Positions 534-37,700 of a DNA stretch of 64,000 bases are shown here, in pieces. The notes under the pieces were generated by a model. It saw nothing but the letters and a program-made list of their open reading frames with translations, had not been told where the DNA came from and did not search any database. The stretch is from Deltaproteobacteria bacterium. Its GTDB lineage: Bacteria > Desulfobacterota > Desulfobacteria > Desulfobacterales > Desulfatirhabdiaceae. How positions within the stretch are numbered: position 1 is the stretch's first letter; each line of letters starts with the position of its first letter. The position numbers were made by a program, and so were the translations under genes. The stretch lies in assembly GCA_016219185.1 (NCBI GenBank), contig JACRBZ010000022.1, forward strand, positions 1-64,000. The letters are read 5' to 3'.

Positions 534-1826
534 TCATTTCAAGCTACATTTAATTTTATGAAACCTTTTTTTCCCAGAACTGAGCATAATCTCATCATTG
601 AAGATATCCTTATCCGTAACCTGGTAATTCGGATCCTCAATCCGTTTGCTGTTGATATAGGCTCCTCCCTGTTCGATCAGTCGCCTAGCTGCACCACCGG
701 ATCCTGCCAAGCCCACGCTATGGATCAATTTAAAAATAGCAATTCCATTTTTCAATTCGCCGACATTCATGAAAGAATGTGGCATGGACTGGTCGTCCAC
801 TTGTTTATCCTGCCTGGGAATGGCGCTTGTCGGCAAAATATCCTCAGAAATCCTTCTTGCTCCAAAAACACCCGCAGATGCTCGATACGCCTTGATGGCT
901 TCTTCAGGCCCATGCGCCAGTGACGTGGCTTCAAAGGCCAGAACCGACTTTGCACAGTTCAAATCTGCATTTTTCAACTGTGTTGTTTGCTGAATCTCTT
1001 CTATCGGCAAAAAAGTAAAAAGAGACAAAAACCGTGTCACGTCTCCATCATCGGTATTCACCCAAAATTGATAATAATCATACGGGGTGGTTTTGACAGG
1101 ATCCAACCAAACCGCCCCCTTGGCTGTTTTGCCCATTTTTGCGCCCGTACTAGTAGTAATCAGCGGAAATGTAATCCCAAAAGCAGATTGCTGTCTTATT
1201 CTGCGGATCAGTTCAATACCAGCGACAATATTTCCCCACTGGTCACTGCCTCCCATTTGAAGCCTGCAACCCAGACGATCAAACAATTCCAAATAATCAT
1301 ATGCTTGAAGCAACATATAGTTGAATTCAATAAAATTCAGACCATCTTCTGCTTCAAGCCGCATGCGATAGCTTTCCGATTTTATCATTCGATTCACAGA
1401 AAAGTGCTTGCCAATATCACGCAAAAAGGGAATATATTTCAAGTCCGTCAGCCAGTCTGCGTTATTCACCAGTATCGCTTTCTGCGCATCAAAATCAAGA
1501 TATTGCGAAAGTTGTTTCTTGATCCCAGCAACATTTTCATCAACCTGTTCTTTGCTCTGCAATTTGCGGGTTTCGGTCTTTCCGCTAGGGTCTCCAACCA
1601 AGCCAGTCCCGCCCCCAACCAGCGCAATGGGCCTGTGTCCGCATTTCTGCATATTGGATAGCGCCATGATGGGAATCAGACTGCCAACATGAAGGCTGGA
1701 CGCTGTCGGATCAAAGCCGATATAGCATGTGATCTTGCCTATTTCCAAATAATCTCGAAGTTCTGCATCATGAGTGGTCTGCTCGATAAACCCGCGCTCT
1801 CTAAGAATATCCATTGCATTTTTCAT
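534..1826 (-). CDS. tyrS: Tyrosyl-tRNA synthetase
   Basis: Class Ic aminoacyl-tRNA synthetase that charges tRNA-Tyr in the cytoplasm. The 430-residue length is normal for the family. The HIGH-type signature reads HVGS at residues 46-49, and the KMSKS loop appears as KMGKT at 230-234. The tyrosine/ATP pocket segment MGGSDQWGN is at 191-199, and the C-terminal S4 RNA-binding domain occupies about residues 365-430. It lies downstream of rny with an inverted-repeat element between them, and upstream of the rRNA promoters. The ATG at 1826 is the only good start near the conserved N-terminus. Confidence 0.97.
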   Translation of the reverse strand: MKNAMDILRERGFIEQTTHDAELRDYLEIGKITCYIGFDPTASSLHVGSLIPIMALSNMQKCGHRPIALVGGGTGLVGDPSGKTETRKLQSKEQVDENVAGIKKQLSQYLDFDAQKAILVNNADWLTDLKYIPFLRDIGKHFSVNRMIKSESYRMRLEAEDGLNFIEFNYMLLQAYDYLELFDRLGCRLQMGGSDQWGNIVAGIELIRRIRQQSAFGITFPLITTSTGAKMGKTAKGAVWLDPVKTTPYDYYQFWVNTDDGDVTRFLSLFTFLPIEEIQQTTQLKNADLNCAKSVLAFEATSLAHGPEEAIKAYRASAGVFGARRISEDILPTSAIPRQDKQVDDQSMPHSFMNVGELKNGIAIFKLIHSVGLAGSGGAARRLIEQGGAYINSKRIEDPNYQVTDKDIFNDEIMLSSGKKRFHKIKCSLK

Positions 1827-1840
1827 AAACTATCAATCCT

Positions 1841-1991
1841 GATGAACTCGTAAATAGTCAAAGTTGGGATGGCACAGTAAAAAATTCAAGATCAAGGCGA
1901 ACAAAACCTGAGTAATGAGACATGCTGATAGTACGTCGCAATAACAAAGAATAAAGCTCAACGCGGAAATTGGACTTTTAACGAAGCCATC
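1841..1991. repeat. Miniature inverted-repeat element, copy 1
   Basis: About 150 bp lacking a plausible gene, bounded by imperfect terminal inverted repeats. The left end reads GATGAACTCGTAAATAGTCA; the right end, reverse complemented, reads GATGGCTTCGTTAAAAGTCC (14 of 20 identical). The element is flanked by AATCCT on both sides (1835-1840 and 1992-1997), consistent with a target-site duplication. The ends, the GGGATGGCA segment and the TTCAAGATCAA segment recur in copy 2 at 37475-37700. It fills nearly all of the rny-tyrS gap, so it must lie in any shared transcript. Confidence 0.75.
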
Positions 1992-1995
1992 AATC

Positions 1996-3558
1996 CTATT
2001 TATTTGCATATTCAACTGCCCGGGTCTCTCGAATCACCATGACTTTGATCTGGCCCGGAAATGTCAGCATTTCCTCAATTTTTTTAACAATATCTCTGCT
2101 TAATAGCGTCGCTTCTTCATCGGTGATCACCTCACTCTCAACAATCACACGCAGTTCCCTGCCAGCCTGTATCGCATATGAGTTTGAGACGCCACGAAAT
2201 GAATTAGCTATATTTTCAAGATCTTCAAGACGCTTTACATAGTTCTCCAGAAGTTCTTTCCGTGCACCTGGCCTGGCACCGGAAAGTCCGTCCGCAGCCT
2301 GTACTAGAAATGCATAAACCGTACTGGGAGGCACATCCTCATGGTGGGCGGCAATGGCGTGTACAACCTTGGGAGACTCGCCGTATTTCTTCGCCAGCTT
2401 TGATCCGATCAGAGCGTGTGGTCCTTCAACTTCATGGTCAATGGCTTTCCCCAAATCGTGAAGCAACCCCATCCTTCGAGCCAGTTTGGAATTCAATCCC
2501 AACTCAGAAGCCATGATGCCGCAGAGAAAGCCAACTTCTACGGAATGCTGCAGAACATTCTGGGCATAACTGGTTCTAAATTTGAGGCTCCCAATGTGTT
2601 TGATCAAATCCGGATGAATTCCATGCACCCCAAGATCAAAAGCCGCTTGCTCCCCCGCTTCCTTGATGGTTACATCCACCTCCATCGATACTTTTTTAAC
2701 AACATCTTCAATTCGTGCAGGATGAATTCTTCCATCGGATATCAGCCTGAGCAAGGATAGCCGCGCAACTTCACGCCGAACCGGATTAAAACCAGACAGA
2801 ATCACCGCCTCCGGCGTATCATCAATTATCAGATCAATACCTGTGGCAGCCTCAAGCGCACGAATGTTTCGGCCTTCTCTACCGATAATTCGCCCCTTCA
2901 TTTCATCCCCGGGAAGCGGAACAACCGATACCGTTCTTTCAGATACAAACTCACCGGAAAATCGCTGAATCGCTGTTGAAATAATTTTTTTAGCTTTTTT
3001 TTCTGCCTCTTCAAGGGTTTCAGCTTCAATTCTTTTAATAAGTTTGGCGCCCTCATACCGAGCCTCATTTTCCATGGCACGAATCAACAATTCTTTTGCC
3101 TGTTCAGAGGACATACATGATATCTTTTCCAACTGTCGTTTTTGTTCTTCTATTAACCCCTTATATTCAAGATCTCTTTTTTCAATCTGTTCTTCACGAT
3201 CATTCAAAAATTTTTCTTTTTTCGTAATTTCTATGTCCCGGCGTTCTGACTGTTCAATTTTTCGATCAATATTCTCTTCTTTTTGTATCAGCCACCTTTC
3301 TTTTTTCTTCACTTCAGCCCGAGTTTCTTTTGTCTCCAAATCAAAATCACTCTTCATTTTAAAAATTACATCTTTTGCCTCCAACTGGGCCTCTTTTGTC
3401 AGCGTTTCCGAGCGATGCCTGGCGTCTTCCAATATGCGCCTGGCATCTTCTTCTGCATGGATGATTTTATCCTTGAGGCTTTTGATCTTCAACCAAGTTG
3501 CAGCAATAAACCCGGCAACAAAACAGACAACGCTTATAAATATGCTATATTCATTCAT
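1996..3558 (-). CDS. rny: Ribonuclease Y
   Basis: Membrane-anchored endoribonuclease that initiates mRNA decay. The 520-residue protein has the standard layout: an N-terminal transmembrane helix (about residues 5-22), a long charged coiled coil (about 25-200), a KH RNA-binding domain containing [15 protein letters not shown], then an HD domain with the metal-binding [10 protein letters not shown] motif. The C-terminus is intact and ends five bases before the inverted-repeat element. The 6S RNA gene lies upstream and tyrS downstream. RNase Y is sporadic outside Firmicutes but common in deltaproteobacteria. Confidence 0.97.
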
Positions 3559-3880: not shown

Positions 3881-4064
3881 AAAACCCCCGCCACTATGCC
3901 GTTTTGTAAGGCCTTTGAGCCAAACGCGGAATTTGGGGAATCCCTGTGATTTTTTTAGGCTTTTCTGTACAAGCAGAACTTGCTCACCAAAATCAGTAAA
4001 GGCCCCTGAGTATTATATGTTGGGACAAAGATCATCTTCCAATAACGAACACGGCAGGGGTATT
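3881..4064 (-). ncRNA. ssrS: 6S RNA
   Basis: A regulatory RNA that binds sigma-70 RNA polymerase by mimicking an open promoter. Read leftward, CCCCTGCC at the 5' end pairs with GGCGGGGG at the 3' end to close an RNA of about 184 nt, the usual 6S size. The interior carries GGTGAGCA, a small hairpin, then GAAAAGCCTAAAA, matching the E. coli 6S segment GGTGAGCA...GAGAAGCCTTAAAA in order and spacing. The position just downstream of zapA is the classic ssrS location in proteobacteria. The exact ends are estimates from the closing stem. Confidence 0.82.
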
Positions 4065-4787: not shown

Positions 4788-5570
4788 TCATGGAGAGTTA
4801 CGAAAGTCAAGATTTTTTGATAGCTTCAATCGCATCTGCCCTTCCGCAATTCGCAAATCTTCCTGGCTGTTCACACCCATCATCTCGGTGGCATCTTCAC
4901 TGATTACCGCGGTAATCGCTTTGTTTTTTAGAAAACCGATTTCGACAATATCCGTTAAATACAATTCCTGCTGAGCATTGTCATTCGTCAGGGCTCCGAT
5001 TGCATCCACTAGAAATGTTCTATCAACACAATAAATACCAGCATTTACAATTTTAATATTTCGCTGAACGTCTGTCGCATCGGTTTCTTCCACTATCCCG
5101 GCAACCCGTTGGTTCTCTTTTAACAAAATTCGACCATACCCTGTTGGATTGTCCATGTTGACTGCAAGAACGGTTAAGTCGTTTTTTAAATTCAGATGTG
5201 TGCGGATCAATAATGCGATTGTTGATTGCGAAATGAGCGGGGTATCCCCGCACAAAATGACAACTTGCCTAATCTGTGCATCCAGATAAGGAAGAGCGCA
5301 CGAAACGGCGTGACCGGTACCCAACTGTTTTTCCTGATAAACATAATGAACATTATATTTATTTTGAATCGAAGACCGAACTATCTCAGACTGATAACCA
5401 ACAATCACATAAACATTTCTGTCGACAAACTGCATGGCAGTTTCCAGAACATAATGAACCATTGGTTTTCCAAGAACCTCGTGAAGCACCTTAGCCTTAT
5501 CAGACTTCATCCGTTTTCCAAGGCCTGCGGCCAGAACAATAAATGCCAGGTTCCGTGAATATATATCCAT
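4788..5570 (-). CDS. GlmU-type nucleotidyltransferase, uridylyltransferase domain only
   Basis: Predicted to transfer UMP to a sugar phosphate, most likely N-acetylglucosamine-1-phosphate, giving UDP-GlcNAc for wall and lipid A synthesis. The N-terminus shows the nucleotidyltransferase signature LAAGLGKRMKS (about residues 13-23) with a downstream lysine (K25) and the CGDTPL metal-site motif near residue 100. The protein has 260 residues, about half of bifunctional GlmU; the left-handed beta-helix acetyltransferase domain is absent, and the zapB-like gene begins 22 bases after the stop. A stand-alone enzyme fits better than a broken gene. Confidence 0.8.
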   Translation of the reverse strand: MDIYSRNLAFIVLAAGLGKRMKSDKAKVLHEVLGKPMVHYVLETAMQFVDRNVYVIVGYQSEIVRSSIQNKYNVHYVYQEKQLGTGHAVSCALPYLDAQIRQVVILCGDTPLISQSTIALLIRTHLNLKNDLTVLAVNMDNPTGYGRILLKENQRVAGIVEETDATDVQRNIKIVNAGIYCVDRTFLVDAIGALTNDNAQQELYLTDIVEIGFLKNKAITAVISEDATEMMGVNSQEDLRIAEGQMRLKLSKNLDFRNSP

Positions 5571-5705: not shown

Positions 5706-5750
5706 AACAAAAAGAGCAGGCCATCTTCAAGATGGCCTGCTCTTTTTGTT
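5706..5750 (-). terminator. Strong intrinsic terminator of the atp operon
   Basis: A perfect 20-bp inverted repeat around a five-base loop (TTCAA) has the core AGAGCAGGCCATC/GATGGCCTGCTCT and A/T runs on both sides, so it could work in both directions. It lies about 25 bases after atpC. Confidence 0.92.
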
Positions 5751-5773: not shown

Positions 5774-6187
5774 CTATTTACGTGTTTCAGCCAGTTTTAA
5801 TCGATACAGGGCCCTGTCTAAAGCCGCTTTTGCTCTGACAAAGTCCACATCTTCTTTCGGCTTGGCTTCAAGACGGGATTTGGCTCGTTCATATGCTGAC
5901 TTCGCACGCTCTATATTAATATCGCGTCTTCTTTCCGCAGCTTGAGCCAAAACCGTCACTTTGTTGGGAAGCGCTTCAGCAAATCCACCGCTGACAAAAA
6001 CATAGCGCTCAGCCCCTTGAACGTCCTTATAACGGATGATGCCCAATTTCAGAGTAGTTAAAAATGGTGTATGGCCTATAAGCACACCGAATTCTCCCAA
6101 ACTTCCAGGAGCAATTACAATCTGTGCTTCTTCGCTGACAACAGATTTCTCTGGTGTAACAACCTCAAGTTTTATATTTCCAGCCAT
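5774..6187 (-). CDS. atpC: ATP synthase epsilon subunit
   Basis: Rotor-stalk and regulatory subunit of F1. The 137 residues show the N-terminal beta-sandwich (IKLEVVTPEKSVVSEEAQ) and the C-terminal two-helix domain rich in Ala, Arg and Lys, including ERAKSAYERAKSRLEAK. It is the last gene of the atp operon, 21 bases after atpD and just before the strong terminator. Confidence 0.96.
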   Translation of the reverse strand: MAGNIKLEVVTPEKSVVSEEAQIVIAPGSLGEFGVLIGHTPFLTTLKLGIIRYKDVQGAERYVFVSGGFAEALPNKVTVLAQAAERRRDINIERAKSAYERAKSRLEAKPKEDVDFVRAKAALDRALYRLKLAETRK

Positions 6188-37474: not shown

Positions 37475-37700
37475 GATGGCCTCGTAAAAGTCAAAATCGG
37501 GATGGCAAAGTACCGGCGTTCCGCCTGTTCAAGATCAAAACGAGCAACTCCTTAAAAAGGATGCGTTCTTATAATAGCACACCACAACGACAATGGAGAA
37601 GCTCCACCCAGATATTGGGCTTATACCAAATAGCTTCCTCGAAGTTATTCTCTGATACAGCGCCGCACAGCGGCGTCACATAGCTTTTTACGAAGCCATC
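37475..37700. repeat. Miniature inverted-repeat element, copy 2
   Basis: About 226 bp with near-perfect terminal inverted repeats: GATGGCCTCGTAAAAGTC on the left, and GATGGCTTCGTAAAAAGC for the right end read in reverse complement (14 of the first 15 identical). Internal GGGATGGCA and GTTCAAGATCAA segments match copy 1 at 1841-1991. A GCGCCGCACAGCGGCG hairpin lies near the right end. No target duplication is obvious. Its right end provides the last codons and stop of the chemotaxis receptor gene. Confidence 0.78.

Follow-up and report, generated by a model that had tools for sequence, protein, structure and literature searches.

What separates rny from tyrS in this deltaproteobacterial genome, and did it belong to the junction from the start? 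In the 64,000-nucleotide stretch analysed here (contig JACRBZ010000022.1, hereafter the window), the genes for ribonuclease Y and tyrosyl-tRNA synthetase are held apart by a small gene-free element with a perfect AATCCT on either side, and in these respects the preliminary description of the locus was accurate. It had further proposed that the element is mobile or was once so, and that a hairpin transcript from it could affect both neighbouring genes.

The element and the rny-tyrS junction

The element has the features of a MITE: it is short (under ~500 bp) and lacks a transposase gene, it has terminal inverted repeats and a target duplication of fixed length, and it belongs to a dispersed multi-copy family with an empty site in a relative (Table 1). 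The ORF list contains no frame of at least 100 aa inside it. Globally aligned with the family consensus, it is identical in 129 of 152 columns, and its outer left (L1) and right (R) terminal repeats, 19 bp each, match at 14 of 19 positions, against near-perfect agreement family-wide.

Table 1. Coordinates of the element, its flanks, its neighbouring genes and the second copy in the window
Feature	Position	Strand	Remarks
MITE copy	1841..1991	+	151 bp; family consensus identity 85%
Left 6-bp target duplication AATCCT	1835..1840	.	Coding strand AGGATT; holds tyrS ribosome-binding core AGGA
Right target duplication AATCCT	1992..1997	.	Overlaps rny stop codon TAG (1996-1998, minus)
Outer left terminal repeat L1, GATGAACTCGTAAATAGTC	1841..1859	+	
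Inner left terminal repeat L2, GATGGCACAGTAAAAAATT	1868..1886	+	Second end-motif copy; pairs with right end in consensus hairpin
Right terminal repeat R	1973..1991	-	Reverse complement GATGGCTTCGTTAAAAGTC
tyrS (tyrosyl-tRNA synthetase), downstream gene	534..1826	-	ORF; N-terminal part 60-84% identical to rny-adjacent tyrS of relatives
rny (ribonuclease Y), upstream gene	1996..3558	-	ORF; conserved in 33/38 relatives
Second copy	37475..37700	+	Diverged, mosaic; nested CCGGCGTTCCGCCTG block; ~68 extra bases before right end

Two further features lie close by. A 6S RNA (Rfam RF00013, 83.5 bits) is found on the minus strand at 3881-4063, just upstream of rny, and a perfect 22-nt inverted repeat with a 1-nt loop, at 5706-5750 between the ORFs 4788-5570 and 5774-6187, is probably a terminator.

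The junction is preserved without the element in congeners. In G005 it reads GCAAATAAA-TAG-GATATGTTGTTT-ATG, with 12 bp between the rny stop and the tyrS start and no insert (TAGGATATGTTGTTTATG), and a similar empty junction is present in G002 (TAGGATTTCAAAATCATG). In the window, GCAAATAAA-TAGGATT is followed by the element and then by AGGATTGATAGTTT-ATG (TAGGATT-element-AGGATTGATAGTTTATG), and taking out the element together with one AGGATT restores the G005 arrangement. Both genes remained whole because the duplicated target contained the overlapping TAG of the rny stop and AGGA of the tyrS ribosome-binding core, so that one repeat now serves rny as its stop and the other supplies the core for tyrS. 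The same junction carries an independent family copy of the L2-R type, inserted a few bases away, in two other congeners, G003 (contig C24, locus L346) and G004 (C458, L345); there, the rny reading frame is closed by a TGA to which the element end contributes, and the flanks are AATAAA-like sequence with one substitution.

A dispersed family with a fixed target duplication

We found ~40 matches to the element at E below 1e-7 in its own genome (a 6.38 Mb draft of 110 contigs with an estimated contamination of 5.74%), with 69-91% identity and many of full length, while the terminal pattern GATGGCTTCGTAAAAAGTCCA gave 62 matches at up to 3 mismatches against a single one for the reversed control. 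This search of the whole genome for the ends, which the preliminary description had suggested, disposes of the possibility that only two loosely similar copies exist. The consensus is present in 21 of 38 genomes, counting that of the window together with those of relatives, and the congener G003 alone has 331 exact ends, against 0 for the control pattern. Matches were also obtained in 36 of 118 genomes drawn evenly from the Desulfobacterota, some of them outside the order and with up to 90% identity, and the named records with the end pattern, among the matches listed, are almost all Desulfobacterales, Desulfobacteraceae, Syntrophaceae or unnamed Deltaproteobacteria. Copies adjoin unrelated genes, and 25 of 29 lie inside no ORF of at least 100 aa. 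No family match was found in the plasmid records searched, nor any match within the element in an Rfam search; among the viral contigs searched, 28 stretches match, few of them element-like and none a transposon. The family is a MITE spread across the Desulfobacterota, ordinary in kind and well supported.

On transposition, members of this family duplicate a target of fixed length, 6 bp, with the form A(A)NN(T)T. Among all ends lying 110-230 bp apart in the loci examined (n=190 candidate pairs, not all independent since alternative left ends of one element are included), identical 6-mers stand immediately outside both ends in 79, and 99 pairs match at 5 or more of the 6 positions, compared with a mean of 15 and a maximum of 27 after shuffling. 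Exact repeats of 4, 5, 7 or 8 bases are rare (1, 2, 7 and 0 cases), which sets the length of the duplication at 6. The first base of the target is A in 76 of the 79 cases and the last is T in 75. Since each insertion duplicates its own target, the absence of AATCCT around other copies is as expected. Together, the copy number, the family-wide 6-bp duplication and the empty site in the congeners strongly support the earlier proposal of a mobile or once-mobile small element whose flanking repeat arose by transposition.

Architecture, folding and mosaic copies

The consensus consists, in order, of L1 (GATGAACTCGTAAAAAGTC), 8 bp, the inner left repeat L2 (GATGGCAAAGTAAAAAGTT), a core carrying the palindrome GGCGTAC...GTACGCC, and R (GACTTTTTACGAAGCCATC). 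The family ends are described by the motifs GAYGNNNTCGTAAAAAGTC and GATG(N)4CGTAAAAAGTC. The doubled left end is an unusual feature of the window MITE, and a three-end architecture is also seen in other families of the same order. In the consensus, L2 and R form a long hairpin (z -5.7 as DNA, z -7.4 as RNA), whereas the window copy is no more stable than its shuffles, whichever strand is folded (z -0.52 and +0.57). It has lost most of the hairpin stability of the consensus and is decayed.

These folding results bear on the alternative that the segment is a static intergenic regulatory element or a structured RNA, such as an attenuator or terminator, between rny and tyrS. The strong hairpin of the consensus and the position at an operon junction are what such an element would show; however, the fold of the window copy itself is no stronger than in shuffled sequence, a search of it for promoter and terminator patterns gave nothing, Rfam is silent, the copies sit beside unrelated genes, and 6-bp duplications are seen in the family. 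A static origin is refuted by the empty site, and we consider this explanation very improbable; the suggested effect of a hairpin transcript on rny and tyrS likewise finds no support in the window copy. Even less probable is a palindrome of the REP/BIME type, or one derived from IS200/IS605, mobilised by a Y1 (HUH) transposase. Such elements are also palindromic, intergenic and multi-copy, but their movement is not known to leave a target duplication, and this is at odds with the fixed 6 bp found in the end pairs counted above.

The second, diverged copy announced by the preliminary description is real: its local score is 127, whereas no other place in the window exceeds ~35 and no shuffle 31. 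It turned out to be larger and mosaic, and neither AATCCT nor any other target duplication was seen around it. The block CCGGCGTTCCGCCTG that it contains is a 15-base palindrome (37513-37527) that also occurs in eight other loci (L026, L027, L028, L029, L055, L066, L067 and L068). It is found almost only within copies of the window MITE family (16 distinct contexts in 2 Mb of loci), and in the window's genome it interrupts or replaces the MITE at no fewer than three different positions. Moreover, a stretch of ~68 bases, TCGTAAAAAGCTATGTGACGCCGCTGTGCGGCGC...AAGTTATTTGG, is near-identical in the window (~37626-37693) and in locus L017 (~1432-1498), the two copies being otherwise diverged, which hints at recent copying or gene conversion.

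Mobilisation in trans and comparison with known elements

We therefore regard the window element, with a probability of about 0.93, as a member of this Desulfobacterota-wide MITE family that was inserted by a transposase supplied in trans at an AT-rich target between rny and tyrS. Having recognised the 19-bp ends, the transposase would have joined them to a target of the A(A)NN(T)T type cut with a 6-bp stagger, and repair of the gaps would have produced the AATCCT duplication. The fixed length of the duplication points to an enzyme of the DDE type acting in trans. The reading frames and start signals of rny and tyrS are intact, and the copy is probably an old, neutral relic.

A full-length transposon with the same termini, which the preliminary description had proposed to look for, was not found among the transposase loci of ISNCY_1, IS1634, PF01609 and PF00665 in relatives, nor among end pairs up to 5 kb apart. 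On named contigs, the genes found between pairs 0.4-5 kb apart are ordinary ones, among them recQ and those for a sigma factor and a Y-family polymerase. One candidate, L163 4959-6900, consists of two facing MITEs around one gene. Another, L390 504-1736 (G021, contig C134), had the look of a transposon of 1,233 bp flanked by AACGTT; yet the enclosed gene, hdrB, stands in the native order hdrA-hdrC-hdrB, and the MITE bodies at the two ends differ from each other. Judging from this gene order and these bodies, it probably represents two truncated MITEs with a chance 6-mer match, a cargo-carrying unit being less favoured. Solo left ends in G022 (C43) and G000 (C90) are decayed remnants. The insertion sequences ISNCY_1 (NF033593) and IS1634 (NF033559) are present in the same order and were possible partners, but their ends are unlike those of the window family: ISNCY_1 loci terminate in TTAGTGCCTGAACG or TAGTGTCCATCC or similar, not in GATG...CGTAAAAAGTC, which speaks against an origin from this element, and no matching ends were found at IS1634, DDE_Tnp_1 or rve loci.

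The doubled left end allows a refinement that is compatible with insertion in trans, namely that L2-R was the original mobile unit, to which L1 was added later, and that two kinds of unit now move. Several family copies lack L1, some units duplicate the target outside L2 instead of L1 (in locus L018, which has no L1, AAAAGT stands directly outside both L2 and R), and the insertion at the rny-tyrS junction of G003 and G004 is of the L2-R type. However, most perfect duplications, including that of the window, lie outside L1, and we hold this order of events to be possible rather than probable.

The same ends, mostly with 6-bp duplications, also surround unrelated bodies, including CACGAAG-type repeats, in G021 (L397, L398 and L399) and G032 (L395 and L396), so that recognition seems to need nothing but the ends. 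On the strength of these unrelated interiors in different genomes, we suggest, more tentatively still, that the family ends may be the recognition site of a Desulfobacterota transposase whose action duplicates 6 bp and which tolerates any body between the ends, the doubled left end then offering two alternative sites that would yield two mobile units from one element.

Correia elements of Neisseria, RUP, ERIC and other small bacterial MITEs resemble the window family in being small, intergenic, palindromic, non-autonomous and present in many copies. They mostly duplicate a TA dinucleotide, in contrast to the 6 bp observed here, and their ends are, as far as known, unrelated. Prokaryotic MITEs with the same features as the window family are treated in a recent review (PMC10969869, 2024). 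According to its summary, the Chunjie MITE of Geobacter uraniireducens (Chen et al. 2008, per PMC10969869) is non-coding, 178-235 bp long and present in ~38 copies with terminal and direct repeats, besides many partial ones; one copy is inserted in an operon, whose structure is undisturbed according to the title of the paper. Chunjie is similar to the window family as a small, non-coding, multi-copy MITE with an operon insertion. Compared by description only, it differs in belonging to another genus and in being reported, in that summary, as the element of one species, whereas the window family is phylum-wide and makes a 6-bp duplication. We could not find any published description of a Desulfobacterota MITE in a search covering mainly openly readable papers, where the letters of the ends gave chance matches only, and the family is apparently undescribed and unnamed.

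Elements present in hundreds of copies and yet with no known transposase represent a marked gap. The rny-tyrS junction shows clearly that a single narrow gap in an operon can be entered repeatedly, apparently without harm. More generally, these data define an abundant repeat family that is likely to turn up again and again in scans of sulfate-reducer genomes, with a usable consensus, a target rule and a duplication length.
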